DNA from: Blautia sp. An249
Lineage (GTDB): Bacteria; Bacillota; Clostridia; Lachnospirales; Lachnospiraceae
Direction: 5' to 3'
Assembly (NCBI RefSeq): GCF_002159835.1
Contig: NZ_NFJL01000015.1
Coordinates: forward strand, 1 to 64,000
DNA length: 64,000 nt
Shown: positions 46,622 through 61,115 of the stretch, piece by piece
How the letters are laid out: each line of letters opens with the position of its first letter
Position numbering within the stretch: position 1 is the stretch's first letter
Notes under the pieces: model-generated
Seen by the model: the letters and a program-made list of their open reading frames with translations, nothing else
Told to the model about the DNA's origin: nothing
Databases searched by the model: none
Made by a program: the position numbers and the translations under genes

Positions 46622-47386
46622 TTGGGAAGAGTTATTGCAATTGCTAATCAAAAGGGTGGAGTAGGAAAATCAACAACAGCAATTAACCTTTCTGCATGTT
46701 TGGCCGAAAAAGGTAAAAAAGTTCTGACTATTGACATTGATCCCCAGGGGAATACGACCAGTGGATTAGGAGTTGATAAAAACAATGTTGAAAATACATT
46801 GTATGAATTGTTGTTGGAAGAAAAGAAAGTTAAGGAATGCATTATCGGTCAGGTGATTGAAAATGTGGATTTGATTCCATCAAATGTGAATTTGTCAGGT
46901 GCGGAAATCGAGTTGATTGGCGTTGAAGACAAAGAGTACATATTAAAAAGGGCTGTTGACAAAGTTAAGAAAAAATATGATTATGTAGTAATGGATTGTC
47001 CTCCATCTCTTAGCATGTTGACCATTAACGCTTTATGTGCAGCCAATTCGGTATTGGTTCCGATTCAGTGTGAGTATTATGCACTGGAGGGATTATCACA
47101 GTTAATACATACAATTGAACTGGTGAAAGAAAGATTAAACCACAAATTGTTTATTGAAGGGGTAGTCTTTACCATGTATGATGCCAGAACCAATTTATCT
47201 CTTGAAGTAGTTGAAAATGTGAAGGAAAATTTGCAGCAAAATATTTATAAAACGATAATACCAAGAAATGTAAGGCTGGCAGAAGCCCCCAGTTACGGAA
47301 AACCTATAAATTTGTATGATACAAAATCGTCAGGAGCAGAAAGTTATCGGCTTCTGGCAGAAGAAGTAATGAACAGGGAGGGATGA
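46622..47386 (+). CDS. parA: Chromosome partitioning ATPase ParA (Soj)
   Basis: A Walker-type ATPase that works with ParB and parS in origin segregation and can regulate DnaA. The 254-residue protein has the deviant Walker A KGGVGKSTT (about 11-19), the motif DIDPQGNTTSGLG, and Walker B VVMDCPPSL. The start is a TTG at 46622 with GGAGG 8 nt upstream. parB follows after 6 bp. Confidence 0.97.
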   Translation: MGRVIAIANQKGGVGKSTTAINLSACLAEKGKKVLTIDIDPQGNTTSGLGVDKNNVENTLYELLLEEKKVKECIIGQVIENVDLIPSNVNLSGAEIELIGVEDKEYILKRAVDKVKKKYDYVVMDCPPSLSMLTINALCAANSVLVPIQCEYYALEGLSQLIHTIELVKERLNHKLFIEGVVFTMYDARTNLSLEVVENVKENLQQNIYKTIIPRNVRLAEAPSYGKPINLYDTKSSGAESYRLLAEEVMNREG

Positions 47387-47392
47387 TAAAGA

Positions 47393-48304
47393 ATGGCGCT
47401 TGGTAGAGGATTAAACGCACTAATCCCTGAAACTGGTTCCAAATCGGTGAAAGAAAAAGAAAAGAAGAGCAGCAATAGTCAAAAAGTTGTTGCAAAAGAA
47501 GAGAGCGAAGCAGCGTCAGGCGTGAAACAGATCAAACTGTCAAAAATTGAACCGAATCGAAATCAGCCCAGAAAGCAATTTGATGAAGACGCTTTGTTAG
47601 AGTTGGCAGAGTCCATTAAACAGTACGGAGTTTTACAGCCCCTCTTAGTATCAGACAAGAAAGAATATTATGAAATCATCGCAGGAGAGAGACGTTGGAG
47701 AGCCGCTAAAATGGCTGGTTTAAAAGAAGTTCCTGCTTTGATTAAAGAATTTTCCGCCCAGGAAGAAGTGGAGATTTCTTTAATTGAAAATATTCAGAGA
47801 GAAGACCTGAATCCGATTGAAGAAGCCCAGGCATACAAAAGACTTTTAGAAGAGTTTCATCTGCGTCAGGACGAGGTGGCAGAAAGAGTCTCTAAGAGCA
47901 GAACAGCAGTGACAAACTCTATGCGTTTGCTGAAGCTGGATGAAAAGGTGCAGCAAATGTTGATTGATGAGATGATTTCTTCCGGACATGCCAGGGCGCT
48001 TCTGGCAATTACTGACGGAAAGATGCAGGTAACCCTTGCAAACCGTATTTTCGATGAAAAACTGAGTGTGCGCGAAACAGAAAGACTGGTAAAAACTGTT
48101 TTAGATCCTAAAGAAAAGAAAAAAGCGCCGGTTAATTCCTCGGAAGACGCTATTTATGAAAGTCTGGAAGAAAAGATGAAGGGGATTATTGGCACAAAGG
48201 TATCAATTAACCGGAAAAAGAATCATAAGGGAAAAATAGAAATCGAATACTATTCACAGGAGGAATTAGAGCGTATAATAGATTTGTTTGAATCAATAAG
48301 ATAA
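47393..48304 (+). CDS. parB: Chromosome partitioning protein ParB (Spo0J)
   Basis: ParB is a CTP-dependent clamp that loads at parS and recruits SMC. The 303-residue protein has the CTP-binding motifs GERRWRAAK (about 99-107) and ENIQREDLNPIEEA (about 127-140), the helix-turn-helix LRQDEVAERVSKSRTAVTNSMRLL (about 154-177), and a C-terminal dimerisation domain. It begins MALGRGLNALI, the usual Spo0J start that binds ParA. Two parS sites lie upstream. Confidence 0.97.
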   Translation: MALGRGLNALIPETGSKSVKEKEKKSSNSQKVVAKEESEAASGVKQIKLSKIEPNRNQPRKQFDEDALLELAESIKQYGVLQPLLVSDKKEYYEIIAGERRWRAAKMAGLKEVPALIKEFSAQEEVEISLIENIQREDLNPIEEAQAYKRLLEEFHLRQDEVAERVSKSRTAVTNSMRLLKLDEKVQQMLIDEMISSGHARALLAITDGKMQVTLANRIFDEKLSVRETERLVKTVLDPKEKKKAPVNSSEDAIYESLEEKMKGIIGTKVSINRKKNHKGKIEIEYYSQEELERIIDLFESIR

Positions 48305-48320
48305 AGGGGCCGTTAATAGT

Positions 48321-48920
48321 ATGATAGATAGTATAGGAATTGATACGGGAATTATCGCTTTTATATTACTGGTATTCGTGGTTATACTTTTAATATGTGT
48401 GGTAAGTTGTCATATGAGGCTGGGACGTCTGGAAAAAAGATATAAGATGTTTATGAAAGGAAAGGATGCACAGTCTTTGGAAAAGACTTTTGTGCGTAAA
48501 TTTGCACAGGTAGACAAACTTTCTGAAATTAGTTCTGTGCAGTCTGAAAACATAATTTCCATACGAAAAGAAATGGATCGCATGTTTACAAAATACGGGG
48601 TAATCAAATACGATGCCTTTGATGATATGGGAGGCAAATTAAGTTTTGTTCTGGCATTGCTGGACAGCAGCAACTCAGGACTCATATTAAATGCCATACA
48701 TAGCAGGGATAACTGTTTCCTTTATTTAAAGGAAATCGTAAAAGGAGAATCCTATGTCATGCTGAGTCAGGAAGAAGTAGAAGCTCTGCGTAAAGCGGTT
48801 CAGTTCGGAGTAGAAGAATTGGAAAATTCAGAGGAAAGCGTACAAAGAAGAGCACAGAAAAAAAGAAAAACAAGTAAAAGCGAAAAAACCGTTAAAAACA
48901 AAAAAGATGGAAATGATTAA
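48321..48920 (+). CDS. DUF4446 family protein
   Basis: A 199-residue protein with one N-terminal membrane segment (about 10-28), a central coiled region, and the DUF4446 core (YGVIKYDAFDDMGGKLSFVLALLDSSNSGLILNAIHSRDNCFLYLKEI). The C-terminus is basic (KKRKTSKSEKTVKNKK). In clostridia this gene is nearly always placed between parB and serS, as here; its function is unknown, but the place suggests a link to the origin or cell pole. Confidence 0.88.
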   Translation: MIDSIGIDTGIIAFILLVFVVILLICVVSCHMRLGRLEKRYKMFMKGKDAQSLEKTFVRKFAQVDKLSEISSVQSENIISIRKEMDRMFTKYGVIKYDAFDDMGGKLSFVLALLDSSNSGLILNAIHSRDNCFLYLKEIVKGESYVMLSQEEVEALRKAVQFGVEELENSEESVQRRAQKKRKTSKSEKTVKNKKDGND

Positions 48921-48937
48921 ATAATAGGAGGAACAAG

Positions 48938-50221
48938 ATGTTAGATATAAAATTTGTAAGAGAAAATCCAGAGGTAGTAAAACAGAATATAAGAAACAAA
49001 TTCCAGGACAGCAAATTGGAACTGGTAGATAAAGTTCTGGAACTGGATAAGGAAAATCGCGAGATTAAGCAGGAAGTAGAGGCTCTTCGTGCACAGAGAA
49101 ATAAAATCTCCAAACAAATCGGAGCTCTGATGGGCCAGGGAAAAAGAGAAGAAGCAGAAGAAGTTAAGAAACAGGTAGCCGCATCTGCACAGCGTATCGA
49201 AGAACTGTCACAGAGAGAAAAAGAAGTAGAAGAAGAACTGTTAAAAGACATGATGATCATTCCCAATATTATCGATCCTTCTGTTCCTATCGGAAAAGAT
49301 GACAGTGAGAATGTTGAGGTGCAGAAATACGGGGAACCAGTTGTTCCTGATTTCGAAATTCCTTATCATACAGAAATTATGGAAAAGTTCAATGGAATTG
49401 ATTTGGACAGTGCAAGAAGAGTGGCAGGAAACGGATTCTATTATTTAATGGGAGACGTTGCGAGACTTCATTCTGCAATTATTTCTTATGCCCGTGATTT
49501 TATGATTAACAGAGGATTTACGTATTGTGTACCTCCTTTTATGATTCGCAGCAATGTAGTAACAGGAGTTATGAGCTTTGCAGAAATGGATGCGATGATG
49601 TATAAGATCGAAGGAGAAGACTTATATCTGATTGGAACCAGCGAACATTCTATGATAGGTAAATTCATCGATCAGATTATTCCGGAAGAACAGCTTCCTC
49701 AGACTCTGACCAGCTATTCTCCGTGTTTCCGGAAGGAAAAAGGAGCTCATGGAATTGAGGAAAGAGGCGTATACCGGATTCACCAGTTTGAGAAACAGGA
49801 AATGATTGTAGTCTGCAAACCGGAAGAAAGCCCCATGTGGTTTGATAAATTATGGCAGAACACCGTTGATTTATTCCGTTCTCTGGATATTCCGGTAAGA
49901 ACTCTGGAATGCTGTTCCGGCGATTTAGCCGATTTAAAGGTGAAATCAGTGGATGTGGAAGCATGGTCTCCGAGACAGAAGAAATACTTTGAAGTGGGAA
50001 GCTGCTCTAATCTGGGTGACGCACAGGCCCGCCGGCTGAAAATCCGCGTAAACGGTGAAAAGGGCAAGTATCTTGCGCATACATTAAATAATACGGTAGT
50101 TGCACCGCCGAGAATGCTGATTGCATTTTTAGAGAATAATTTAAATGAGGATGGTACTGTTAATATTCCGGAAGTTCTGCAGCCATATATGGGCGGCATG
50201 ACAAAAATAGAAACAAAATAA
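48938..50221 (+). CDS. serS: Serine--tRNA ligase
   Basis: SerRS charges tRNA-Ser. The 427-residue class II synthetase has the N-terminal coiled-coil arm (1-105), motif 2 region (SPCFRKEKGAHGIEERGVYRIHQFEKQE) and motif 3 (NNTVVAPPRMLIAFLENN). The sequence DVEAWSPRQKKYFEVGSCSNLGDAQARRL is typical of the adenylate-binding part. It is 17 bp after DUF4446. Its tRNA-Ser(GCU) substrate is encoded at the left end of the window. Confidence 0.97.
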   Translation: MLDIKFVRENPEVVKQNIRNKFQDSKLELVDKVLELDKENREIKQEVEALRAQRNKISKQIGALMGQGKREEAEEVKKQVAASAQRIEELSQREKEVEEELLKDMMIIPNIIDPSVPIGKDDSENVEVQKYGEPVVPDFEIPYHTEIMEKFNGIDLDSARRVAGNGFYYLMGDVARLHSAIISYARDFMINRGFTYCVPPFMIRSNVVTGVMSFAEMDAMMYKIEGEDLYLIGTSEHSMIGKFIDQIIPEEQLPQTLTSYSPCFRKEKGAHGIEERGVYRIHQFEKQEMIVVCKPEESPMWFDKLWQNTVDLFRSLDIPVRTLECCSGDLADLKVKSVDVEAWSPRQKKYFEVGSCSNLGDAQARRLKIRVNGEKGKYLAHTLNNTVVAPPRMLIAFLENNLNEDGTVNIPEVLQPYMGGMTKIETK

Positions 50222-50266
50222 TTCTATTTAAGAAGCTGACAATGAGACTGGAAGAAGGTGGCTCTT

Positions 50267-51139
50267 ATGCATAGTTATTTAAAATCTGTGGGATTTTCCA
50301 ATTTAAGTAAAAATGAACTAAAGGAAATTCTGGAAGATGTGGTAAACACATACGATGAAAAGTTAATAGTAGATACAAATCCGGAAACCCTATTTGCAGA
50401 GTTTTCTAAAAATTACGGATGTGACTGTGGAATTACGGTATGTGGAGAATACGATGAAAAGAATCAGTTCCATATGGAATATTATTTCCCATTTTTCAGA
50501 GGTACCGGAGTTACCACACAGGAACATATTGTGGTGGAGAAACATGCGGAAAAGGATTCGTATGCAGGAGCATGTGATGATTTAAGAATAGGAGTTACTC
50601 TGATATTCTATCTCCAGAATGCGGCTGAATATATGATAGAATATTATAAACAGAACGGAAAAGTTAATTCTTATCCCCTGACTTTATCAGGACTTGCAAA
50701 AGAGGGAAAAATACTTCTTCCTCTGCAGAAAGATAAAGAGCAGGTGAAAATTGAACAGGAAGCGTCCCAGAATCGGAATCATCTGATAGCTGCCGCAAGA
50801 AGCGGAGATGAAGAGGCTATGGAGAGTCTGACCATGGAAGATATGGATATGTATTCGATGATTTCCAGAAGGATTGCAACGGATGATGTTTTTACAATTG
50901 TGGACTCTTATTTTATGCCCTATGGGATTGAATGCGATCAGTATAACGTAATGGGCGAGATACTGGATATGATGAGCTTCAAAAATATTCTGACAGGAGA
51001 AGATATTTATCAGCTTACCATTGAAAGCAACGATATGCAGTTTGACATTTGTATTAATAAGAAAGATCTGCTGGGAGAACCGAAAGTGGGAAGAAGATTT
51101 AAGGGGATCTTATGGCTTCAGGGACAGCTTCAGATGTAA
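50267..51139 (+). CDS. DUF3881 family protein
   Basis: A 290-residue acidic protein of the DUF3881 family, found mostly in Lachnospiraceae. It starts MHSYLKSVGFSNLSKNELKEIL. I use the ATG at 50267, with AAGGTGG 5 nt upstream, instead of the GTG at 50258, which overlaps that ribosome binding site. The protein has no signal peptide or membrane segment and no known motif. It is the last core gene before the tRNA-Arg attachment region; a terminator follows it. Confidence 0.85.
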   Translation: MHSYLKSVGFSNLSKNELKEILEDVVNTYDEKLIVDTNPETLFAEFSKNYGCDCGITVCGEYDEKNQFHMEYYFPFFRGTGVTTQEHIVVEKHAEKDSYAGACDDLRIGVTLIFYLQNAAEYMIEYYKQNGKVNSYPLTLSGLAKEGKILLPLQKDKEQVKIEQEASQNRNHLIAAARSGDEEAMESLTMEDMDMYSMISRRIATDDVFTIVDSYFMPYGIECDQYNVMGEILDMMSFKNILTGEDIYQLTIESNDMQFDICINKKDLLGEPKVGRRFKGILWLQGQLQM

Positions 51140-51241: not shown

Positions 51242-51280
51242 GTTCCCTTAGTTAAATGGATATAACAAGCGCCTCCTAAG
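51242..51280 (+). pseudogene. 5' half of a tRNA-Arg(CCU), interrupted in the anticodon arm
   Basis: The 39 nt have the acceptor 5' strand GTTCCCT, TA at positions 8-9, a D arm GTTAAATGGATATAAC, and the anticodon arm up to CGCCTCCTAAG (anticodon CCT). The expected 3' half does not follow; instead repeat unit 1 begins. It differs clearly from the intact tRNA-Arg(CCU) downstream (acceptor GTCTTCG), so it is the remains of a different tRNA gene, probably the host's original one. Confidence 0.8.
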
Positions 51281-51552
51281 TGTTTGGTAAGCGAACACCT
51301 CATGGAAGCAGGGACAGGCAGATTTGAGTACAAATCGGATCTGGTACGGAAACGAATTGAACAGGAGATGAACATGAAAAAGGTGTTCGCTTCACTGTCA
51401 AAGAAACAGAAAAAATTGTTGGTTACCAGTCATAAAAAATGGCTGTTACCATAGAATCGGTTATCTGACCGAGAGGCTGAAAACCCAGTGTTTAAGCCAA
51501 AAATCAGAGAATGTCTTCGTAGCTCAGCTGGATAGAGCACTCGCCTCCTAAG
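51281..51552 (+). repeat. Repeat unit 1 of the tRNA-Arg array (272 bp)
   Basis: Starts TGTTTGGTAAGCG immediately after the half-tRNA and ends with 40 nt (51513-51552) that equal the 5' half of the intact tRNA-Arg(CCU), stopping after CGCCTCCTAAG. The first 232 bp contain an 11-bp inverted pair AAGCGAACACC (51289-51299) / GGTGTTCGCTT (51382-51392), a TCGGT / ACCGA hairpin and a 26-codon reading frame. Unit 2 follows with no gap and reads the same. Confidence 0.95.
51374..51454 (+). CDS. Putative 26-residue basic peptide, copy 1
   Basis: AGGAG lies 6 nt before an ATG that opens a 26-codon frame beginning MKKVFASLSKKQKK and ending KKWLLP. It is strongly basic. The frame is repeated unchanged in unit 2, but since the DNA copies are identical this does not itself show selection. 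It may be a real small gene, a leader peptide, or chance. Confidence 0.4.
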   Translation: MKKVFASLSKKQKKLLVTSHKKWLLP

Positions 51553-51824
51553 TGTTTGGTAAGCGAACACCTCATGGAAGCAGGGACAGGCAGATTTGAG
51601 TACAAATCGGATCTGGTACGGAAACGAATTGAACAGGAGATGAACATGAAAAAGGTGTTCGCTTCACTGTCAAAGAAACAGAAAAAATTGTTGGTTACCA
51701 GTCATAAAAAATGGCTGTTACCATAGAATCGGTTATCTGACCGAGAGGCTGAAAACCCAGTGTTTAAGCCAAAAATCAGAGAATGTCTTCGTAGCTCAGC
51801 TGGATAGAGCACTCGCCTCCTAAG
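51553..51824 (+). repeat. Repeat unit 2 of the tRNA-Arg array (272 bp)
   Basis: As far as I can read it, identical to unit 1 and joined to it directly. Its last 40 nt (51785-51824) are the actual 5' half of the intact tRNA-Arg(CCU). The junctions at 51280/51281, 51552/51553 and 51824/51825 all fall after the same 11 bp, CGCCTCCTAAG, which is the likely crossover core. Confidence 0.95.
51646..51726 (+). CDS. Putative 26-residue basic peptide, copy 2
   Basis: Same frame and ribosome binding site as copy 1, 272 bp downstream, within repeat unit 2. The same caution applies. Confidence 0.4.
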   Translation: MKKVFASLSKKQKKLLVTSHKKWLLP

Positions 51825-51858
51825 CGAGGGGTCAGAGGTTCAAATCCTCCCGGAGACG
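51785..51858 (+). tRNA. tRNA-Arg (anticodon CCU)
   Basis: A 74-nt cloverleaf: acceptor GTCTTCG / CGGAGAC with G73, D arm AGCTCAGCTGGATAGAGC, anticodon stem CTCGC / GCGAG with loop CTCCTAA (anticodon CCT), T loop TTCAAAT. The T stem AGAGG / CCTCC has an A-C mismatch at its base. CCA is not encoded. Its first 40 nt are the end of repeat unit 2. This is the only complete tRNA at the locus, and the accessory element begins just after it. Confidence 0.93.
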
Positions 51859-51863
51859 GCAAA

Positions 51864-51920
51864 TATAAGCGGGAATTATTAGCTGGAACGGCTGAATAAT
51901 TACCCGCTTATTTCATTTTC
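51864..51920 (+). terminator. Strong hairpin/terminator after tRNA-Arg
   Basis: ATAAGCGGG-AATTATT-AGC pairs with GCT-AATAATT-CCCGCTTAT (51864-51912) and is followed by TTCATTTTC. It ends tRNA transcription and marks the junction to the accessory element. Confidence 0.75.
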
Positions 51921-52212: not shown

Positions 52213-52253
52213 GAACGGGCTTTTTGCGTATCAGAAGAAAGAAGGAGGAAGAA

Positions 52254-53099
52254 TTGGAAGAAAAAGAGAAAGTCATTGAAATTGAGATCGAGAGGCTTCG
52301 CGATTTTAAGAAGCATCCATTTCAGGTCAGGGACGATAAAGAGATGTCGCTTCTAAAAGAAAGTATTCAAAATTACGGGATACTCAGTCCACTGATCGTT
52401 AGACCTGTCCTGGATGGTGTGTATGAGATTGTGGCAGGGCATAGAAGAAAATATGCGGCACAGCAATTGGGATATCGTAAGCTGCCCGTAATCATCCGGG
52501 TGATGTCCGATGACGAGGCGATTATTTCCATGGTGGATTCTAATTTGCAGCGGGAGCGGATCAGCTACAGCGAAAAAGCATTTGCCTATATGATGAAAAA
52601 TGAGGCAATGAAAAGAAAAGGCGGTCGAAAGCGTAGCCAAATTGACCACAAATTCAAAGGGAAAAAGACAGTCGAGATTATTGGAGTGGAAGGCGGTGAC
52701 AGCCCTAAGCAGGTTCAACGCTATATCAAGATTACAGAATTGATCCCGGAACTGCTCCAACAGTTGGATGATGAAATGATTGGATTTAATCCTGCAGTAG
52801 AGATCGCCTCTCTGAAGAAGGAAGAGCAAAAACAGCTTCTCGACGCTATGGATTATGCACAGTCTACGCCTTCACTGTCACAGGCGCAGCGGATGAAAAG
52901 GTTAAGCAAAGAAGGAAAGCTCACAAAAGAAAAGATGGAAGATATTATGAGTGAGATTAAGAAGGGAGAAATCTCCAGAGTGATTTTTACAAATGAACAG
53001 CTTCACCGATATTTCCCATCCAGTTATACACCGGAGAAAATGAAACGGGAAATCCTGGCAATATTAAAACTCTGGGCAGAACAATACTGGGAACAGTAA
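52254..53099 (+). CDS. ParB/RepB/Spo0J family partition protein (element copy 1)
   Basis: A 281-residue ParB-like protein. The ParB N-terminal domain spans about 10-100 with GHRRKYAAQQLG in the CTP-binding place of GERR, and ISMVDSNLQRERISYSEKAFAY as the second motif; a helix-turn-helix region follows (about 140-170). The start is a TTG at 52254 with AGGAGG 5 nt upstream; a TTG 30 bp earlier lacks a site. It heads a parB-parA-parB-repA run, so it belongs to element segregation rather than the chromosome. Confidence 0.87.
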   Translation: MEEKEKVIEIEIERLRDFKKHPFQVRDDKEMSLLKESIQNYGILSPLIVRPVLDGVYEIVAGHRRKYAAQQLGYRKLPVIIRVMSDDEAIISMVDSNLQRERISYSEKAFAYMMKNEAMKRKGGRKRSQIDHKFKGKKTVEIIGVEGGDSPKQVQRYIKITELIPELLQQLDDEMIGFNPAVEIASLKKEEQKQLLDAMDYAQSTPSLSQAQRMKRLSKEGKLTKEKMEDIMSEIKKGEISRVIFTNEQLHRYFPSSYTPEKMKREILAILKLWAEQYWEQ

Positions 53100-53115
53100 T
53101 TGAGGAGGACAAAAA

Positions 53116-53901
53116 ATGTGTAAGGTTATTTCAATAGCAAATCAGAAAGGCGGAGTCGCAAAGACTACTACTGCTGTAAATCTTGGCATTGGATTAGCAA
53201 GGAAAGGGAATAAAGTATTGCTTGTCGATACAGATCCGCAGGGAAGTCTGACTGCAAGCCTTGGATATGTCGAACCGGATGAAATTCCGGTTACTCTGGC
53301 AAACATCCTGACGGCTGTTATTAATGAGGAAGAAATCGATATGACAGATGGGATTCTTCATCATGAGGAAAATATAGATATCATGCCCGGCAATATTGAA
53401 CTTTCTGCGTTGGAAGTGACAATGGGAAATGTTATGAGCAGGGAATTAATACTGAAGGATTATATCGATATGATGAGAGAACGATACGATTATATTTTGA
53501 TCGATTGTATGCCAAGTCTTGGAATGATGACAATTAATGCTCTGGTGGCATCAGATTCAGTGCTTATCCCGGTTCAGGCTGCTTACCTTCCTGTAAAAGG
53601 ACTTCAGCAGTTAATTAAAACAATCATGATGGTAAAGAAGAGGTTGAACCGTAAATTGAAAATCCAGGGAATTCTTCTTACTATGGTCGATTACAGAACA
53701 AATTATGCGAAAGATATTTCTTCTAAAGTACATGAAACATACGGATCAAGGATTGTTGTCTTTCAGAATACGATTCCTATGTCTGTAAAGGCTGCCGAAA
53801 CAAGCGCAGAAGGAATAAGTATTTATGCACACTGTCCCAGGAGTAAAGTTGCAGAGGCATACAGAAATCTGACAGAGGAGGTTTTGGAAAATGAAAAATA
53901 G
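53116..53901 (+). CDS. ParA family ATPase (element)
   Basis: A 261-residue ParA/Soj-type ATPase with Walker A KGGVAKTTT (11-19; Ala replaces Gly, as is common in this family), VDTDPQGSLTASLG and Walker B ILIDCMPSLGMMT. It lacks an N-terminal DNA-binding extension, so it is a type Ib or Soj-like form. It is 16 bp after the first parB-like gene and overlaps the second by 11 bp. It differs clearly from the chromosomal ParA. Confidence 0.93.
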   Translation: MCKVISIANQKGGVAKTTTAVNLGIGLARKGNKVLLVDTDPQGSLTASLGYVEPDEIPVTLANILTAVINEEEIDMTDGILHHEENIDIMPGNIELSALEVTMGNVMSRELILKDYIDMMRERYDYILIDCMPSLGMMTINALVASDSVLIPVQAAYLPVKGLQQLIKTIMMVKKRLNRKLKIQGILLTMVDYRTNYAKDISSKVHETYGSRIVVFQNTIPMSVKAAETSAEGISIYAHCPRSKVAEAYRNLTEEVLENEK

Positions 53902-54793
53902 AAGCGGGGAAAAAGTTAAACTGACAAGTATTGACGAAATGCTTGGAGTTCTGAATGAAGAGTCGGCTATGGAGATAGAAATCAGCAGGATCCATAGTTT
54001 CAAGGATCATCCTTTTAAAGTTCTTGATGATGGAAAAATGCAGGATCTGGTAGACAGTGTAAAGGAAAATGGAGTACTTACTCCTGTATTGATCCGTCCA
54101 ACGGCGAATGATCAATATGAAATGATATCCGGTCATCGTAGAATGCATGCAGCTGCTATCGCAGGTCTTACTACAATTCCGGCAATCATCAGAGAACTGT
54201 CAGATGATGAAGCGGTAATTGCAATGGTAGATGCCAATATTCAGAGGGAAGAACTACTTCCGAGTGAAAAGGCATTTGCTTTTAAAATGAAATTAAATGC
54301 AATGAAGAGACAAGCCGGGAGACCAACAAAAAATGCGTCCCAAAATGGGACAAATAAAAGATCGGATGAACTCCTCGCGAGTGAAGTAGGAATCAGTAGA
54401 AATCAGATACAGCGTTATATTCGTCTCACGGAACTTATACCGGAAATGCTCGAACTTGTTGATAAAAAGAAACTGCAATTCACGGTAGCTGTTGATATTT
54501 CATATCTCGACAGGGAAATCCAGAAATGGATTTATGAATATATCCGGGACAATGGTTTCATCAAGCCTGGACAGATTTCAGCATTGCGGAAACATCTTGA
54601 AACGGAAACAATCAGTCAGAATTTTATGATCTCGATATTTAATAATTGTATTGCTCCTAAAACCAAAAATAGAAAGGTGACAATTTCAGAGAAAAAACTC
54701 ACGAAATATTTTCCGCTTGAATATTCGGAAGAGCAAATGGAACGGATAATCGTCAGTTTATTGGAAAAATGGAAGACGGAACAGGAGGGATGA
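53891..54793 (+). CDS. ParB/RepB/Spo0J family partition protein (element copy 2)
   Basis: A 300-residue ParB homologue with IHSFKDHPFKVLDDGKMQDLVDSV at about 33-56, GHRRMHAAAIAGL, and the helix-turn-helix LLASEVGISRNQIQRYIRLTELIPEML (about 157-183). It is related to element copy 1 over most of its length (both contain KAFA(Y/F)KM-NAMKR). The start lies inside the parA end. Two ParB homologues around one ParA suggest either two DNA-binding specificities or a centromere protein plus a regulator. Confidence 0.9.
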   Translation: MKNRSGEKVKLTSIDEMLGVLNEESAMEIEISRIHSFKDHPFKVLDDGKMQDLVDSVKENGVLTPVLIRPTANDQYEMISGHRRMHAAAIAGLTTIPAIIRELSDDEAVIAMVDANIQREELLPSEKAFAFKMKLNAMKRQAGRPTKNASQNGTNKRSDELLASEVGISRNQIQRYIRLTELIPEMLELVDKKKLQFTVAVDISYLDREIQKWIYEYIRDNGFIKPGQISALRKHLETETISQNFMISIFNNCIAPKTKNRKVTISEKKLTKYFPLEYSEEQMERIIVSLLEKWKTEQEG

Positions 54794-54797
54794 AAAA

Positions 54798-55148
54798 ATG
54801 GCGTTTCGGTATTTTTATGGAAAAGAGGCGGATCAATACTCTTTTATCCGCATTCCTAAACTGTTATTAACAGGCAAGGATTTCTCATCTCTGTCAATTA
54901 TGGCTAAGATGTTATATGGTCTTCTGTTGGATCGAATGGGAATGGCATCAAAGAATAAATGGCTCGACAGAGAGAACAGAGTATATGTGATCTATCCTAT
55001 TGCAGAAATCCAGCAGGATATGTGTATTTCAAGAAAAAAGGCGATGGAGATCCTTTCTGAATTGGAGGAAAAGGGACTTGTTGAGAAACAGATCCGAGGA
55101 TCTGGACTGCCAAACCTTTTATATATTAAACAGTTTACAGCGGCTTGA
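54798..55148 (+). CDS. RepA_N-type replication initiator N-terminal domain protein
   Basis: A 116-residue protein that equals the N-terminal winged-helix domain of RepA_N initiators: FRYFYGKEADQYSFIRIPKLLL, SIMAKMLYGLLLDRMGMASKNKWLDRENRVY and the recognition part CISRKKAMEILSELEEKGLVEK. It is closely similar to the first 120 residues of the next gene but has no C-terminal domain. It may act as a regulator or an auxiliary initiator, or be a duplicate remnant. It starts 5 bp after parB copy 2. Confidence 0.85.
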   Translation: MAFRYFYGKEADQYSFIRIPKLLLTGKDFSSLSIMAKMLYGLLLDRMGMASKNKWLDRENRVYVIYPIAEIQQDMCISRKKAMEILSELEEKGLVEKQIRGSGLPNLLYIKQFTAA

Positions 55149-55149
55149 T

Positions 55150-55175
55150 CAGAGGTGCCGGAAATAGCACCTCTG
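55150..55175 (+). promoter_or_regulatory. Hairpin between the two rep genes
   Basis: Perfect 9-bp inverted repeat CAGAGGTGC / GCACCTCTG with an 8-nt loop, 2 bp after the short rep gene and 24 bp before the repA ribosome binding site. It has no T-run, so it is more likely a regulatory RNA structure or protein-binding site than a terminator. Confidence 0.55.
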
Positions 55176-55199
55176 AAATCCAGAAGAAAGGAGGAACAT

Positions 55200-56204
55200 A
55201 TGGAACAAAAAGTATCATTTAATTATTTTTACGGATCCCAGGCGGATCAGTATAGTTTTTACCGGATTCCAAAAGCGTTATTTAAGAATGATTACTTCCG
55301 CGGACTGTCCAGTGATGCGAAGATATTGTATGGGCTGATGTTGGACAGGATGTCTTTATCTATCAAGAACCAGTGGTTTGATCATGAAAACAGGGCTTAT
55401 ATATACTTTTCTATTGAAGATATTATGGAATTGCTGAATTGTGGCAGAAATAAAGCTGTAAAATCGCTGCAGGAGCTGGACAGTGAAAACGGGATTGGTC
55501 TAATCGAGAAGAAACGTCAGGGATTTGGCAAGACCAATATTATCTATGTAAAATCATTTATGATGGCAGACGAGGAAAAAACTGCGGAAGATATTCCATC
55601 AGATCAGGAGACAGAGCCACAGAAGTTTACAATTCAAACTTATGAGGGGGAAGAGTCAGATCAAGAAGTTTACAAAACAAACTTCAAGAAGTCCCAAAAA
55701 CAAACTTCAAGAAGTCCTGAAAATAAACTTCAAGAAGTTTGCAAAACAAACTCTATTTATAATAATTTAAGTTATAATAAAGAGAATGATACTGAATCAG
55801 ATCTAATCGGATCGTCTCAGATGCGATCCGCAGAAGGGATGACAACTATGCAGGCGTACGGAAGCCTGATCAAAGAGAATATTGACTATGATAATCTTCT
55901 GATCACCCATCCTTTTGAGCAGGAGCTGATCAATGGGATCTATGAGCTGATACTGGAGACAGTATTGTGTCAGAATGAAGAAATACTGATTGCCAGTAAC
56001 CGGTATCCGGTGCAGTTTGTGAAAAGTAAATTTCTGAAACTTAAATATTCACACATCGAATATGTGATCGAATGTCTGAAAAAGAATACTTCAAAAGTCA
56101 AGAATATTAAGAAGTATATGCTGGCTGCATTATTTAATGCGCCTGCTACGATTGATGGTTATTATCAGGCTGAGGTAAATCACGATATGCCCCAGTTTGC
56201 CTGA
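55200..56204 (+). CDS. repA: Replication initiator protein RepA (RepA_N family)
   Basis: A 334-residue initiator. The N-terminal domain (1-125) is RepA_N type (FNYFYGSQADQYSFYRIPKALF; CGRNKAVKSLQELD). A low-complexity linker (about 140-190) encodes no conserved protein but carries tandem 23-bp DNA repeats. The C-terminal domain (about 215-334) has the replication-relaxation-like LITHPFEQELINGIYELILETVLCQ and KKYMLAALFNAPATIDGYYQAEV. The ATG at 55200 has AAAGGAGG 5 nt upstream. In RepA_N plasmids the origin lies inside rep, as here. Confidence 0.9.
   Translation: MEQKVSFNYFYGSQADQYSFYRIPKALFKNDYFRGLSSDAKILYGLMLDRMSLSIKNQWFDHENRAYIYFSIEDIMELLNCGRNKAVKSLQELDSENGIGLIEKKRQGFGKTNIIYVKSFMMADEEKTAEDIPSDQETEPQKFTIQTYEGEESDQEVYKTNFKKSQKQTSRSPENKLQEVCKTNSIYNNLSYNKENDTESDLIGSSQMRSAEGMTTMQAYGSLIKENIDYDNLLITHPFEQELINGIYELILETVLCQNEEILIASNRYPVQFVKSKFLKLKYSHIEYVIECLKKNTSKVKNIKKYMLAALFNAPATIDGYYQAEVNHDMPQFA
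55662..55753 (+). repeat. Four tandem 23-bp iterons inside repA (probable origin)
   Basis: Four head-to-tail copies of CAAGAAGT..(7-8 variable)..AAACTT at 55662, 55685, 55708 and 55731, with a degenerate fifth at about 55621-55641. The period of 23 is not a multiple of three, so the repeats shift reading frame and cannot be a protein repeat; the DNA is what is conserved. AT-rich sequence (55753-55790) follows directly, a likely unwinding region. Confidence 0.9.
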
Positions 56205-56222
56205 GGGAGGAAAGGAGAAATC

Positions 56223-56519
56223 ATGATAATTTTAAAATTAATTGAAAAACTGATATTGCTTCCGGTATGGATCATCTTGGCTCTGATCAGCCTTTGCATT
56301 AAGCTGACAGTCAATTTATATGGCTTTATAAAAGGGGTTTTTACTTTCCTGCTTATTCTTTTGATGATCGGAACGATTGTCTGTTATCAGGACTGGGTTC
56401 AGGTGGCGGCACTCTTGTGTATTGAAGCGGCAGCATTCTTGATTTTATTCTGTGCATGCTTTATCGAAGTAACGGTAGATATGCTGAGAGGATATGTGAG
56501 CGACAGGCTTTTGTCTTAG
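56223..56519 (+). CDS. Small membrane protein of unknown function
   Basis: A 98-residue protein with two or three hydrophobic segments (about 8-30, 36-54 and 58-80). The central ILALISLCIKLTVNLYGFIKGVFTFLLILLMIGTIV shows no known motif. It has GGAGGAAAGGAG before the ATG and lies 19 bp after repA, so it is in the same operon. Genes like this are common in integrative elements of gut Firmicutes. No function can be given. Confidence 0.7.
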   Translation: MIILKLIEKLILLPVWIILALISLCIKLTVNLYGFIKGVFTFLLILLMIGTIVCYQDWVQVAALLCIEAAAFLILFCACFIEVTVDMLRGYVSDRLLS

Positions 56520-56533
56520 AAAGAAGGATGAAT

Positions 56534-57121
56534 ATGGCGTACATACATGAAATTTTAGGGAAAGCAAATATACGGAGTGTTGCGGATTTTCTGCTGTTTG
56601 GTCTGGGACCGGATGAAGATACAAGGAATTATGAGGAGAGAATAGACGAACTGTACGACAAGTTTGAAGATGCAGTAAAAAAGTATGATCCAAATCCCAC
56701 GTCAGAACTTCTGGACCTTTCCAATGAGATCAGCAGTGAGACGGCTAGCGTATATACAGAAATAGGACTTCAGATGGGAATTCTACTTGTTGTCGATATG
56801 GCTGCTAATCTCAGGCGTGAAAAAGGTCAGTACAGGCATAATACGGAAATCGATTATGAGGCAGACGAACTTATAAATAAGCTTTATCAGATACAGGAAG
56901 GATCTGTATTTCAGGAAGCTTTGTATGATGATAAAGAATTTCAACAAGCAGATAAAGAGCTAAAAATAGTAGTTGAAAAGATGCAGGAGAACTTATCGGA
57001 TTGTCGCAGAATGGACGTCATACAGGAACTGTATGATAAATTGGAGTGCATGATCCGGATATGCGGGAAGACGGCATATTGTCAGGGATTTCATGATGCA
57101 AACCGGTTATTTAATCTGTAA
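56534..57121 (+). CDS. Hypothetical protein, element backbone
   Basis: A 195-residue acidic, helical protein with no recognised motif. The start is the ATG at 56534 with AAGGA 5 nt upstream (an ATG at 56528 is possible; the open frame reaches back to 56456 inside the previous gene). It has a single cluster YNRR-free, Glu-rich middle and ends GKTAYCQGFHDANRLFNL, a pattern I associate with small hypothetical proteins of Lachnospiraceae elements but cannot tie to a function. A hairpin follows. Confidence 0.7.
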   Translation: MAYIHEILGKANIRSVADFLLFGLGPDEDTRNYEERIDELYDKFEDAVKKYDPNPTSELLDLSNEISSETASVYTEIGLQMGILLVVDMAANLRREKGQYRHNTEIDYEADELINKLYQIQEGSVFQEALYDDKEFQQADKELKIVVEKMQENLSDCRRMDVIQELYDKLECMIRICGKTAYCQGFHDANRLFNL

Positions 57122-57128
57122 AAATAAA

Positions 57129-57162
57129 CAGGCTCCACATTCATTGTGAATGGGGAGTCTGT
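57129..57162 (+). terminator. Hairpin terminator of the rep operon
   Basis: CAGGCTCCACATTCA pairs imperfectly with TGAATGGGGAGTCTG, 8 bp after the stop. The U-tract is weak (TTCATC). It lies between convergent genes and probably ends both. Confidence 0.6.
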
Positions 57163-57178
57163 TCATCAGATGATGTGT

Positions 57179-57391
57179 TCAGAATACATTGTCATCAGGA
57201 TAATGAGTCATAATATCTTCAACATTGCAATTCAAAATATTACAGAGTTTATCAATCGTATTGACTTCTACATTCTGATTATGCCGTAATCGGTTTAGCT
57301 GAGAGCGGTTCATATGATACCGGGTATACAGATCATATTGTGTAATGTTCCGGGCTTTCATAGTTTCCCATAACTTGTCATATTTAATCAT
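57179..57391 (-). CDS. Helix-turn-helix (Cro/C1, YozG-like) regulator
   Basis: A 70-residue protein consisting of one XRE-type helix-turn-helix: MIKYDKLWETMKARNITQYDLYTRYHMNRSQLNRLRHNQNV with IDKLCNILNCNVEDIM as the closing helices. Such short proteins usually repress their own or neighbouring genes. It is divergent from the membrane-protein gene at 57498 and shares the 106-bp gap that carries a palindrome. Confidence 0.85.
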   Translation of the reverse strand: MIKYDKLWETMKARNITQYDLYTRYHMNRSQLNRLRHNQNVEVNTIDKLCNILNCNVEDIMTHYPDDNVF

Positions 57392-57461
57392 TTCAGTAAA
57401 CTGCTTTCTATAGATTCATATTGCTATACAGATATTATTAGCGTAAAATAAGGGAAACAAT

Positions 57462-57481
57462 AGTGTTCGTATACGGACACT
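57462..57481. promoter_or_regulatory. Palindromic operator candidate
   Basis: AGTGTTCGTATACGGACACT is a 20-bp palindrome with one mismatched pair. It lies in the divergent promoter gap, 16 bp before the start at 57498 and next to its ribosome binding site. The HTH protein at 57179 is the obvious candidate to bind it. Confidence 0.6.
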
Positions 57482-57497
57482 ACAGGAGAGTGCGTAT

Positions 57498-57854
57498 ATG
57501 AGAAAAGTAAAGATAATCCTGCCGATTCTGTTTCTTTTCACCGGCATTCTTTTATATCTGCAGTTTGGCCGGGATGTAGAAGTAATATCCACAACGAGTA
57601 CAACCAGCGATCAGTTTTATGAACAGGGAATGACAGTAGTTGCCAATAAGCTTATCATTCCTGATAAAGTTGCTTTTGCAGAAAATCTTCTGGATCGGAC
57701 CAGGCGAAATGATTTCAAAGAAGTTCTTTTTTCTTATGATGTATTAGGATATCCGGACAGGATAAAGATTAAGGTCTATCCTAATAGGATCTGCATGAAA
57801 TTATGCAGAGGAAGTTGGAATATTGAATATGAAAATGGAGAAATGTGGCTATAA
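57498..57854 (+). CDS. Hypothetical membrane-anchored or secreted protein
   Basis: A 118-residue protein with a basic start and one hydrophobic segment (ILPILFLFTGILLYLQF, about 6-22), followed by a Thr/Ser-rich stretch (STTSTTSD) and a small outer domain. There is no lipobox. AGGAG lies before the ATG. No homologue is recognised. It is divergently arranged with an HTH gene. Confidence 0.65.
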   Translation: MRKVKIILPILFLFTGILLYLQFGRDVEVISTTSTTSDQFYEQGMTVVANKLIIPDKVAFAENLLDRTRRNDFKEVLFSYDVLGYPDRIKIKVYPNRICMKLCRGSWNIEYENGEMWL

Positions 57855-58187
57855 GAATTGTTGGTGGATTGGAGATATACATTGATTGATTTTTAGAAAA
57901 TAGATATAATCAAACTAACAAATACGAATTTGAATATCAGTAAATTATGACCTCTCAACAGAGGTTACAGTGTTTTAATAAAATCCTCCAAAAGCCTTGA
58001 AAACAAAGGATTTATCGCAATGTGTTCGCCTTATCTCTTTATACGGTTACACACAAGTTTACTCTTTCCCTCCTTGCTCATAAGGGCAAATGCAAGGGCA
58101 AGAAAATCTCATAACAAAATATAACAGAGTGTGGCAATCGGAGAGCTGTGATGTATGTGCGAATATATTATAACGGAGGATTTTTCA
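57855..58187. other. Gene-free stretch at the left edge of the nested tnpV block
   Basis: About 330 bp with no credible gene. Base composition shifts from AT-rich (57860-57960) to more balanced sequence. The last 150 bp look like the leader usually found before tnpV. The left border of the nested block is probably in this stretch, but I see no clear terminal repeat or target duplication. Confidence 0.4.
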
Positions 58188-58565
58188 ATGGACAAGTACA
58201 TTTACGATGATAAAAATGGTCTGTGGTATGAACTGCAAGGAGATTATTATATCCCATGTCTTATCTTACCAGCCGAAAAAGAACAGCCTATTGGTTTGTG
58301 GGGACAGCGGCACTTGCGGTATCTGAAAGAATACCGCCGAGCCACCTACATAACCTTGTTCACAAGCGGCAGGCTGAACAATTACCTTGCTGACATCGAC
58401 AGGCAGGCGCAGGAGCGCATGGAAAGGCTCACAGAGCAGATGAAACGGGTGCAGGGTATTACGGAGCAGTTAAAGGCGGAAAACGCTTTGGAATGGACAC
58501 AGAGAATGAATAACATACGGGCGTGTGCAAAGGAGATTGTGGAAAAAGAAATCATCTTTGCATAA
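58188..58565 (+). CDS. tnpV: Transposon-encoded protein TnpV
   Basis: A 125-residue protein beginning MDKYIYDDKNGLWYELQGDY, the typical TnpV start, with a central RHLRYLKEYRRATYITLFTSG and a coiled C-terminal half that ends KEIVEKEIIFA. TnpV is known from Tn4451-type and related mobilisable elements of clostridia; its role is not clear. The ATG at 58188 has GGAGG 8 nt upstream. Its presence with arsenic genes and a mobilisation remnant marks this block as an inserted module. Confidence 0.82.
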   Translation: MDKYIYDDKNGLWYELQGDYYIPCLILPAEKEQPIGLWGQRHLRYLKEYRRATYITLFTSGRLNNYLADIDRQAQERMERLTEQMKRVQGITEQLKAENALEWTQRMNNIRACAKEIVEKEIIFA

Positions 58566-58570
58566 GAAGA

Positions 58571-58604
58571 CAGCGGTAGGATTTAGTTTTCCTACCGCTG
58601 TTTC
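58571..58604 (+). terminator. Terminator after tnpV
   Basis: CAGCGGTAGGA / TCCTACCGCTG stem followed by TTTCAC, 6 bp past the stop. It separates tnpV from the arsenic operon. Confidence 0.85.
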
Positions 58605-58624
58605 ACTTAAATCAAAAAAATATA

Positions 58625-58662
58625 TTGACATTTTTCTATGTGTTGCATATAATAACACATAG
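58625..58662 (+). promoter_or_regulatory. arsR promoter with overlapping operator
   Basis: TTGACA (58625-58630), 17-bp spacer, TATAAT (58648-58653): a perfect promoter. The 9-bp inverted repeat CTATGTGTT (58636-58644) / AACACATAG (58654-58662) straddles the -10 box, which fits an ArsR/SmtB dimer site that blocks polymerase until the metalloid binds. Confidence 0.9.
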
Positions 58663-58692
58663 ACATTTATCTATAGGAGGTGATTGAGAGAG

Positions 58693-59001
58693 ATGGATGA
58701 AAAAAGAATTGCGGCAATTTTCAAAGCGTTTTGTGATGAAAACCGCATTAGGATTATAAAACTGCTGCGTTCAGGTGAAAAATGTGCTTGCAAGTTGCTA
58801 GAAGAAATCAATGTCACGCAGCCTACGCTTTCCCACCATATGAAAATTCTTTGTGACGCTGAAATAGTTGTCGGGCGCAAAGAGGGAAAATGGACACACT
58901 ATTCTATTTCAGAAAAAGGTGTGGAGCAGGCAAAAGAATGTTTGCGGCAGTTGACAACACTTGATGTTGAAAGCGAAAACAAGTCGTGCTGTGAAAAGTG
59001 A
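58693..59001 (+). CDS. arsR: ArsR/SmtB family metalloid-responsive repressor
   Basis: A 102-residue winged-helix repressor: FKAFCDENRIRIIKLL, the recognition helix TQPTLSHHMKIL, and WTHYSIS in the wing. The metal-site cysteines are C31 and C33 (KCACKLL, like ELCVC in arsenic sensors), with C14 near by and a C-terminal CC pair. It should repress its own operon and be released by arsenite. I prefer the ATG at 58693; the TTG at 58684 is only 3 nt from AGGAGG. The operator overlaps the promoter upstream. Confidence 0.92.
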   Translation: MDEKRIAAIFKAFCDENRIRIIKLLRSGEKCACKLLEEINVTQPTLSHHMKILCDAEIVVGRKEGKWTHYSISEKGVEQAKECLRQLTTLDVESENKSCCEK

Positions 59002-59089
59002 GGAAGTTTATTGATTGCTTTTCCGCACGGCTTATATTCGGGACGATAAATCGACATATTTCAATATAACTATATGAAAGGGGCTTTTT

Positions 59090-60103
59090 ATGGAGACACT
59101 AAAAACAATTTGGGACTTTTTTCAAAATGAAGTCCTTGGTATGAACTGGCTGAATCGCCTCATTGAAACATTTTTGAACGCTTGCGGTTTAGATACCACG
59201 GGCAAAATAGGAGGAAGTGTTCAGTTTTTCATCTATGATACTGTAAAAATTATGGTACTGCTCGGCGTTTTGATTTTGATTATCTCGTATATTCAAAGTT
59301 ATTTCCCGCCCGAAAGAACTAAAAAGATACTCGGCAGATTTCACGGAATATGGGCGAATATCATCGCCGCTCTGCTCGGTACGGTAACACCGTTTTGCTC
59401 GTGTTCTTCCATTCCGTTGTTTATCGGGTTTACAAGCGCAGGTTTGCCGCTTGGCGTTACATTCTCCTTTTTGATTTCTTCGCCGATGGTTGACCTCGGA
59501 AGCCTTGTCTTACTGATGAGTATTTTCGGCTGGAAAGTTGCTGTTTTATATGTAATATTCGGTTTGGTAATCGCTGTGGCTGGCGGAACGCTAATTGAAA
59601 AGTTGCACCTCGATAATCAAGTGGAAGAATATATCCGAAACGGTCACTCGATTGATGTTCCGCAGGAGGAACTGCATTTCAAAGACCGTATGAAATTTGC
59701 GTGGGAACAGGTTGTTGAAACCGCTAAAAAGGTTGCGCCTTATGTTCTGATCGGCGTGGGCATTGGTGCTTTCATTCACAACTGGATTCCTGAAGAATTT
59801 ATTGTCAAAGCACTTGGCGAAAATAATCCGTTTGGTGTAATTCTTGCTACGATAGTCGGTATTCCGATGTATGCGGATATTTTCGGTACAATCCCGATTG
59901 CAGAAGCCCTGCTTGCAAAAGGAGCTTTGCTCGGCGTTGTTCTTTCCTTTATGATGGGCGTTACAACGCTCTCGCTCCCTTCAATGATTATGCTTCGCAA
60001 GGCAGTTAAGCCGAAACTGCTTGGTATTTTCATTGGAATATGTGCTGCTGGTATTATTATTGTAGGCTATCTTTTCAACGCAATACAATATTTAATTGTT
60101 TAA
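59090..60103 (+). CDS. ArsP/YraQ-family permease (DUF318)
   Basis: A 337-residue permease with about eight membrane segments. The family motif TPFCSCSSIPLFIGF (Cys 103 and 105) and the similar second-half block IVGIPMYADIFGTIPIAEAL are clear. The family (PF03773) includes ArsP, which exports organic arsenicals, and other heavy-metal permeases. Between arsR and arsC, arsenite export is a fair inference: there is no ArsB or Acr3 in the cluster, so this permease probably takes that place. Confidence 0.87.
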   Translation: METLKTIWDFFQNEVLGMNWLNRLIETFLNACGLDTTGKIGGSVQFFIYDTVKIMVLLGVLILIISYIQSYFPPERTKKILGRFHGIWANIIAALLGTVTPFCSCSSIPLFIGFTSAGLPLGVTFSFLISSPMVDLGSLVLLMSIFGWKVAVLYVIFGLVIAVAGGTLIEKLHLDNQVEEYIRNGHSIDVPQEELHFKDRMKFAWEQVVETAKKVAPYVLIGVGIGAFIHNWIPEEFIVKALGENNPFGVILATIVGIPMYADIFGTIPIAEALLAKGALLGVVLSFMMGVTTLSLPSMIMLRKAVKPKLLGIFIGICAAGIIIVGYLFNAIQYLIV

Positions 60104-60121
60104 TTTTAGGAGGTTATTATT

Positions 60122-60502
60122 ATGGCATTATTTAACTTTGGAAAGAAAAAGGAAGAAGAAAAGAAAACACCTGCTTGCGCTTGTAGCTGCGGTTGTGCTG
60201 CCAGCGAAGCAGAAAGCATTACAAACGATTGCTGTCCTGATTTGAAAGAGGGAGAAATCTGCTGTATCAAAGTGTTAGGAGCAGGTTGTAAATCCTGTCA
60301 CGAACAATTTGAATACACAAAGCAGGCGGTAAAGGATATGGGACTTTCCGTAGAGGTCGAATACATTACCGATATGCAGAAAGTAATGGAATACGGTGTT
60401 ATGAGTATGCCTGCCCTTGTTGTCAACGAAAAGGTTGTTGCTATGGGTAAGGTTTTGAAAGCTGCTGATGTGGTTGCTCTGCTGCACAAGCTGGGGTTTT
60501 AA
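60122..60502 (+). CDS. Cys-rich thioredoxin-fold protein (redox-active disulfide protein 2 type)
   Basis: A 126-residue protein. The C-terminal 80 residues form the small thioredoxin/glutaredoxin-like fold of the TM0996/MTH895 kind, with the redox motif CKSC (C56, C59 in GAGCKSCHEQ) and MPALVVNEKVV. The N-terminal 48 residues hold eight more cysteines (C19, 21, 23, 25, 37, 38, 47, 48). Such an extension is likely to bind arsenic or another soft metal. It lies between the permease and arsC with 18 bp and 2 bp gaps, so it is part of the operon and could deliver or reduce the metalloid. Confidence 0.85.
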   Translation: MALFNFGKKKEEEKKTPACACSCGCAASEAESITNDCCPDLKEGEICCIKVLGAGCKSCHEQFEYTKQAVKDMGLSVEVEYITDMQKVMEYGVMSMPALVVNEKVVAMGKVLKAADVVALLHKLGF

Positions 60503-60504
60503 CG

Positions 60505-60897: not shown

Positions 60898-60898
60898 C

Positions 60899-61066
60899 AT
60901 GAAAGCCACAGAATGGATATATTGCCCTATCTGCGGCAATAAAACTCGCACAATGATACGGGAAGATACAGAATTAAGAAACTTCCCTCTCTACTGTCCG
61001 AAGTGCAAAAAGGAAACAATCATCAATGCTCAGGATATGAAAGTCACGCTTGCAGAACACAAATAA
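60899..61066 (+). CDS. Cysteine-rich KTR domain protein
   Basis: A 55-residue protein with two zinc-ribbon-like knuckles, CPICGNKTR and CPKCKK, matching the cysteine-rich KTR family that is widely found next to tnpV and antibiotic- or metal-resistance genes in clostridial elements. It starts 1 bp after the arsC stop. The family's function is unknown. It is too short to be noticed by length-based ORF calling. Confidence 0.82.
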   Translation: MKATEWIYCPICGNKTRTMIREDTELRNFPLYCPKCKKETIINAQDMKVTLAEHK

Positions 61067-61078
61067 GATTTTTATGTA

Positions 61079-61115
61079 TGCCGCCGCATGGGTAATACCA
61101 TAGCGGCGGTTTTTC
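61079..61115 (+). terminator. Terminator of the ars operon
   Basis: GCCGCCGCATGG / CCATAGCGGCGG stem followed by TTTTT, 12 bp past the KTR stop. Strong Rho-independent terminator. Confidence 0.92.

Follow-up and report, generated by a model that had tools for sequence, protein, structure and literature searches.

What has made a stretch of Blautia DNA carry the 5' half of a tRNA gene in tandem, each copy broken off at the same place in the anticodon arm? The locus lies in a window of 64,000 nucleotides, the whole stretch of DNA analysed here, which is part of contig C7 of the Blautia sp. An249 assembly (G000); a second contig of the same assembly, C55, also enters the argument. Our results favor the view, which we hold with good confidence, that the repeated units would be left-end modules of integrative elements, and that such elements replace, rather than repair, the tRNA gene they enter. 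The element found here is conjugative and, likened through its gene families, of a type that we take to be Tn1549-like.

An earlier note on this DNA had placed an 11-bp core, CGCCTCCTAAG, at three positions. All three exact matches are there (51270-51280, 51542-51552 and 51814-51824), and the whole assembly (3,936,770 bp, 68 contigs) holds no other. The two 272-bp units that the note called identical, 51281-51552 and 51553-51824, are so at 100%, and the sequence switches directly after each core, to unit 1, to unit 2 and to the 3' half of the tRNA, as had been described. A tandem repeat exact over 272 bp excludes chance. The core itself has to be shortened: its three 11-bp copies stand, but the part common to all junctions, right ends included, is only 8 bp long, CTCCTAAG (51273-51280, 51545-51552, 51817-51824), that is, the 7-nt anticodon loop CTCCTAA and one further base. 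Since the right-end and array searches all demanded CTCCTAAG, so that a shorter common part would be invisible to them, the true common part might be shorter still.

From left to right, the chromosomal flank upstream of the tRNA-Arg(CCU) site (46622..51139, +; ORFs, with DUF3881 by Pfam) is followed by a TATAAT box (51199-51204), which lies upstream of the displaced 5' half of the original chromosomal tRNA-Arg(CCU) gene (51242..51280, +; sequence, acceptor pairing and fold). This half ends in core 1 (51273..51280, +), the attL of the element. Counted with its core, unit 1 occupies 51273-51544 and is identical to unit 2 over 272 bp; after the core (51281..51544, +) it consists of a left arm (51281-51511) and, from 51512, the 5' half of an element tRNA. 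Core 2 (51545..51552, +) leads into the remainder of unit 2 (51553..51816, +), with a left arm at 51553-51783 and, from 51784, the 5' half of the intact tRNA. The latter, an element-borne tRNA-Arg(CCU) gene (51784..51860, +; ARAGORN; Rfam tRNA, 59.7 bits), bears core 3 in its anticodon arm (51817..51824, +), the expected next target to judge from insertions at such cores in genomes G029 and G011. Behind it the sequence reads as a terminator-like hairpin with a T-rich stretch (51863..51915, +), which is part of the element and lies inside the stretch common to loci L147, L156, L197 and L206. ARAGORN finds no tRNA at the joint of core 1; a complete, different tRNA sits inside the element. The units are overlapped by ORFs of at most 60 aa (the longest listed), and by eye a 26-codon ORF can be seen inside the unit. 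Going by their ORF sequences, we take the other genes of the left flank to be parA, parB, a DUF4446-like gene and serS. The run parA-parB-DUF4446-like-serS-DUF3881 recurs upstream of the tRNA site at 19 of the 20 other loci compared, four of which (G011, G053, G037 and G058) have extra ORFs between the run and the site; the 20th (G036) begins at a contig end.

The earlier note gave each unit a fresh 5' half of the intact tRNA. This holds for the units, which share the acceptor GTCTTCG with the intact tRNA; the leftmost half (51242-51280), whose acceptor is GTTCCCT, is no such copy and belongs to another tRNA-Arg(CCU). Its counterpart lies on C55, where at position 19399 CTCCTAAG is followed by a tRNA 3' half ending in AGGGAAC. 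The two acceptor strands form 7/7 pairs, and the joined halves fold as one tRNA-Arg(CCT) with paired stems. Five places in the genome matched a pattern search, and two of them are, by reading, the intact tRNA on C7 and the displaced 3' half at C55:19399. Judged by their sequences, the left half and the C55 half are the original chromosomal gene, split by the conjugative element. The genome has 57 tRNA matches, and among the loci scanned with ARAGORN the anticodon CCT belongs only to the element-borne tRNA. Because the end of C7 and the start of C55 overlap by 14 bp and the gene order across them is plausible, we infer that the two contigs join as one element, which would measure ~55 kb if they abut. 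The genes at this joint are presumably topoisomerase III and DUF5688 on C7 and a RadC/ArdC-like gene on C55. Chromosomal DNA to the right of the C55 core, used to seek an empty site in relatives among the other loci fetched, gave one weak match only.

The element start (52224..64000, +) runs on toward the end of C7 at 87045. It opens with genes for ParB (52224-53099; Pfam), ParA (53116-53901; by eye), a second ParB (53891-54793; Pfam) and RepA_N (54798-55148; Pfam); VirD4 (CD1115 family) and VirB4 (CD1110 family) follow farther right on C7 (NCBIfam), and a MobA/VirD2-like relaxase, HTH_17 proteins and a Phage_integrase protein lie on C55 just inside the right end (Pfam). Integrase, relaxase, VirD4 and VirB4, the genes expected of an integrative and conjugative element (ICE), thus all lie between the cores C7:51273 and C55:19399, across the presumed contig join. 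The tyrosine integrase gene stands ~0.8 kb from the partner core. The earlier note had anticipated that a site-specific recombinase works in the anticodon arm, which these findings support, and had pointed to a partner core beside an integrase gene at the far end, which has now been located.

Relatives of the C55 integrase (50-66% identity) are present at seven other right-end loci, so that 8 of 16 have one when this genome is included, and right-end integrases sit 0.4-3.3 kb from the core. Five further elements have a relative (38-47% identity) at the left end, 241-278 bp past the last core. At the remaining 8 of 16 right-end loci no related integrase ORF was found among ORFs of at least 250 aa in the fetched stretches; five of these loci belong to genomes whose element bears its integrase on the left, another sits on a contig that stops 46 bp short of the core, and G001 and G005:C4 fit neither case. 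The C55 integrase presumably produces these joints, and the arm presumably supplies the tRNA with a promoter; the order of events given below is likewise presumed.

The unit of the window recurs in five further genomes (L147, L156, L189, L197 and L206; L205 is the same genome as L197, with an element identity of 98.4% over a shorter stretch). In four of them (L147, L156, L197 and L206) identity to the window's sequence amounts to 99.3-99.6% for the unit and 96.5-97.9% for the tRNA with adjoining element DNA (0.9-3 kb compared), whereas the chromosomal flank on the serS side reaches 76.5-79.4% over the main pieces and 66-73% over the shorter pieces. Given a near-identical unit, a close element and a diverged chromosome, the unit evidently moves with the element as its left end. 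It had been proposed to be a free-standing att-bounded mini-cassette; these comparisons speak against that, and loss of a unit is suggested by G001 alone (see below). Copy number, which had been expected to vary between genomes, does: the same four genomes have one unit, and the window and L189 have two. In L189 the two match each other exactly and those of the window at 98.9%, and a further unit stands behind them. The exact start of the window's unit occurs in 3 of 397 genomes of the family, the window's genome included.

Arrays of this kind are widespread. The exact 11-mer, single copies counted, is present in 28 of 38 genus genomes of at least 90% completeness, and variant cores also occur in arrays among the fetched loci. 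When genome_contigs was scanned for pairs of cores spaced 247-277 bp apart, 60 stretches came back, 56 of which hold arrays of tRNA halves, mostly, by record title, from Lachnospiraceae and other Clostridia; a half-tRNA filter left four as non-arrays, three on one Epulonipiscium contig and one from Balneolales. When one such stretch was read (L145:6200-6900, Epulonipiscium viviparus), the match proved to be a short repeat unrelated to tRNA. Before clustering we dropped L165, L180, L181, L188 and L190 as repeats of other loci and L184 for having no array. The 69 arrays that remained after removal of repeats hold 101 units, with at least two units in 26 arrays, and the units cluster into 20 families of at least two members and 29 single units. 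Unit lengths fall at 80-134 bp (n=21), 179-196 bp (n=3) and 224-292 bp (n=77), the long class being favored by the genome_contigs scan itself.

Most arrays with several units (17/26) have no neighboring units of one family, as in U11, U8, U6 (L178) or U7, U4, U5 (G011); one-family neighbors occur in the other nine, and in seven of these nine the two differ (71-99% identity). The first half of the array differs between hosts, and the same units are seen in differing company. The last unit tends to be followed by a particular tail: T1 stands behind U1 in 10 of the 11 arrays concerned (in the 11th a different unit comes next), T3 behind U2 in all four arrays that have U2 last, and T5 behind U5 in three of four. 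The link is a loose one, for a U6 unit (L158) and a single-member unit (L199) have T3-like tails as well, and the T4 tail stands twice behind U6 and once behind U5. The array of G037 is present, and its right end was not found within about 70 kb.

In three genomes elements are nested at cores. The G011 array still contains the U4 left end, and on another contig a displaced 3' half, with 1500 bp behind it, is 95.5% identical to the U4 element of L155; there relaxase, integrase and core are followed by the ParB-ParB-RepA of the next element. Because the U4-like displaced half and body lie elsewhere while the U4 left end is in the array, a newer element sits inside the tRNA of the U4 element, whose left end was left behind. 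G029 has a ~24-kb element, its integrase on the left, exactly at the core between two U12 units (253/263 identical to each other; the right one 99.3% identical to the U12 unit of G016). In G005, integrase, core and ParB stand back to back. Serial integration, as the earlier note had it, gains support from G029 and G011, where elements are seated exactly at array cores. Taken together, the unit-element linkage, the mixed-family arrays and this nesting argue that the arrays are, as far as their sequences tell, stacked left ends of successive elements. Of 14 displaced 3' halves in 12 genomes, only 9 find a 5' half with 7/7 acceptor pairs in the array of the same genome (with genome labels shuffled, mean 5.0; p = 0.013). 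The support from this is modest, since acceptor types recur.

We propose that a tyrosine integrase would recombine the incoming element into a resident tRNA-Arg(CCU) gene, inside its anticodon loop CTCCTAA(G). For as long as the element is present the resident gene would be split, its 5' half staying on the left and its 3' half being moved to the far right end. Next to the 5' half would come a left arm (about 50-250 bp; roughly 230 bp here), presumably with accessory binding sites, and then the element's own complete tRNA-Arg(CCU). The next element would enter the anticodon loop of the newest tRNA, or sometimes an older core; its predecessor's left arm and 5' half would stay where they were, and the 3' half and body of that predecessor would be shifted rightward. 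Repeated arrivals would produce a stack of left ends with the oldest leftmost; as newcomers target the newest tRNA, left ends would pile up as a record of past invasions. Repair of the target by a fragment would demand an element whose sequence fits the acceptor stem of the host, and carriers of a whole tRNA would be free of this demand; the att partners share only about 8 bp here. For one-family neighbors that differ, as in seven arrays, separate arrivals appear to be favored because of that very difference. The identical pair in the window may stem from a second arrival of the same element and a collapse of the two long copies, or from an exchange of core 1 with core 2, which seem the likeliest routes; the element may also have been excised at core 2 before another arrived. 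Two scans of viral_contigs for unit starts, in search of the joined attP, gave 0 matches.

A simpler origin has to be weighed against this. Unequal crossing-over or slippage between the short cores could duplicate a unit in tandem with neither an integrase nor repeated arrivals, and the identity of the two units in the window, repeated in the pair of L189, is what one would expect from it; a single sister-chromosome exchange, core 1 with core 2, would yield the structure seen here. As a general account we nevertheless consider it rather unlikely, since most multi-unit arrays have no same-family neighbors to derive from one another, such neighbors mostly differ where they do occur, and both the split original tRNA and the nesting are left unexplained. 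This rival, already named in the earlier note, consequently fails for the mixed-family arrays; for the last step in the window, from one unit to two, unequal crossing-over may be the cause.

That each unit might be an independent micro-cassette, mobilized core to core by integrases acting in trans so that the locus resembles a small integron, is improbable in our view. Cores do bound the units, the same units occur in differing company, and in G001 the displaced U12 tail is present while the U12 unit is absent, as if it had been excised; a U12 tail without its unit suggests that a unit was lost there. However, the last unit is mostly tied to its element and tail, a unit standing alone with no element could not be established, and a scan of viral_contigs and 397 family genomes for unit starts gave neither a mini-circle nor a unit junction outside arrays. 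As to membership among integrons, the sites seen are tRNA anticodon cores, and the C55 integrase, which matches Phage_integrase, reaches 35.7 bits on the NCBIfam XerA/integron-integrase model (cutoff 220).

An assembly artefact doubling a repeat comes to mind with an exact repeat in a 68-contig assembly, and is very unlikely when the same unit forms an identical pair in L189 and non-identical one-family pairs occur in seven arrays. Least probable of all, to the point of being negligible, is an intron or a structured tRNA-like RNA between tRNA halves, which the position in the anticodon loop of tRNA-Arg(CCU), the recurrence of a T-loop-like GTTCRA in units and a score of 27.1 bits as tRNA for the left half with the unit start (under Rfam's 29) might suggest, since each unit is followed by another 5' half and never by a 3' half. 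The anticodon loop of tRNA-Arg(CCU) is a site of group I introns. A group I intron or other known RNA was rejected, as Rfam gave no intron match up to E = 5 and the 3' exon is missing after the unit. A phage or plasmid carrier was likewise set aside: no record in the phage or plasmid collections covers 80% of the query, and among the 20 matches listed for each, coverage is at most 20% and at most 13%, respectively, mostly over the tRNA.

Of the 30 long unit families, 18 show the GTTCRA motif 38-75 nt past the core (shuffled mean 0.75, max 5), 16 of those 18 at 45-48 nt, in units that are otherwise barely alignable; the exact motif is absent from the window's own unit (51281-51511). It is possible that GTTCRA serves as an accessory site rather than as a tRNA arm. 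By eye, the stems flanking it are unlike a T-arm. A conserved hairpin before the tRNA was also considered, and was discarded as too weak (mean best stem 5.1 vs 4.5 shuffled, 30 unit families).

How does replacement of a tRNA gene by element-borne copies compare with systems already described? There is precedent for accretion at one att site, for the remnants called cis-mobilizable elements (CIMEs) and for islands in tandem at RNA genes (PMC5704250, PMC3146451). Like the tRNA islands compiled in Islander, the present elements have a tyrosine integrase, a crossover in the anticodon loop and a displaced target fragment that marks the far end; the C55 3' half completes the split tRNA. The Islander account describes a target restored by sequence inside the island (PMC4383910). 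Here the target is not restored at the island end; a complete, different tRNA is brought in behind the arm, and displaced 5' and 3' halves are left. The same source counts 2083 anticodon-centred sites among 3919 islands, contrary to the earlier note's impression that integration in the anticodon is the rarer mode, and lists islands with a 5' tDNA fragment as rare (159). Accretion and CIMEs of ICEs are covered in PMC5704250, which cites Pavlovic 2004 and Bellanger 2011. The units resemble CIMEs in being att-bounded remnants left behind, bounded by cores and without integration or transfer genes; unlike CIMEs they are short left ends (80-292 bp) that keep a tRNA 5' half, and no decayed gene-bearing islands. 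In contrast to ICE accretion as treated there, the target shifts to each newcomer's own tRNA.

The ssrA islands of Dehalococcoides (PMC3146451) share with these loci many tandem islands, direct repeats, a single RNA gene and some members without an integration module; they differ in their serine recombinase, in a crossover in the T-loop region of the tmRNA and in repeats downstream of ssrA, and the accessible part of that paper makes no mention of gene replacement. In pTN3-like archaeal elements a promoter of the element drives the recombinant tRNA gene (PMC8371274), which is the likeness; there the joint restores the original tRNA, whereas here a whole second gene is carried, with a presumed promoter. 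The same text notes that the anticodon loop with its flanking stem resembles a canonical tyrosine-integrase core site. With Tn1549-like elements the present one shares CD1115 VirD4, CD1110 VirB4, a MobA/VirD2-like relaxase, RepA_N and ParB, and it differs in the integrase gene beside the tRNA-Arg(CCU) joint and in the element-borne tRNA. In the PMC literature searched we recognised no description of whole-tRNA replacement with stacked left ends, and this combination of whole-gene replacement and piled-up short left ends that each keep a tRNA 5' half looks like a new one.

We extend the replacement reading only tentatively, at a little short of an even chance, to the proposition that mobile elements have taken over the tRNA-Arg(CCU) gene in many Lachnospiraceae and other Clostridia, that a family of integrases reads little beyond the anticodon loop common to tRNA-Arg(CCU) genes, and that the locus is an ordered archive, perhaps an integron-like platform adding and deleting modules of arm plus tRNA half from core to core. 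Because the element would carry a whole tRNA with its own start, no match to the acceptor stem would be needed and genera could be crossed. If this is true, one element family could invade many genera with a target identity of ~8 bp, a complete replacement tRNA freeing it from the rest of the target gene, and a tRNA gene would have become a serially replaced, horizontally acquired gene. Stacked left ends would then be an ordered list of past arrivals at one locus, even after loss of the elements, and could serve to follow the movement of elements between gut bacteria. Such elements may escape programs that detect islands by pieces of the intact tRNA gene, since the displaced halves would stem from a different tRNA sequence.

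Several further observations concern the contents of the elements. By eye, 58684-60897 looks like an arsenic block carried as cargo, with an ArsR-like regulator, a permease, a thioredoxin-like and an arsenate-reductase-like protein. Farther along C7 (C7:67148-73096; L004:3148-9096) the element encodes a repetitive surface protein of 1982 aa whose repeats resemble, by eye, those of collagen-binding proteins or pilins, and its right part contains a 413-aa mutator-type transposase (IS256-like, by eye; C55:5535-6776; L251:5535-6776). A 333-aa protein with repeated HTH_17 domains, which we take to be of excisionase type, adjoins the integrase (C55:16234-17235; L127:6234-7235). Finally, in G004 and G051 (L078, L079) a T1-like tail with the acceptor TATGGAC stands directly after the chromosomal half without any unit, and the displaced half of G051, also with the acceptor TATGGAC, lies on the opposite strand ~270 kb away.
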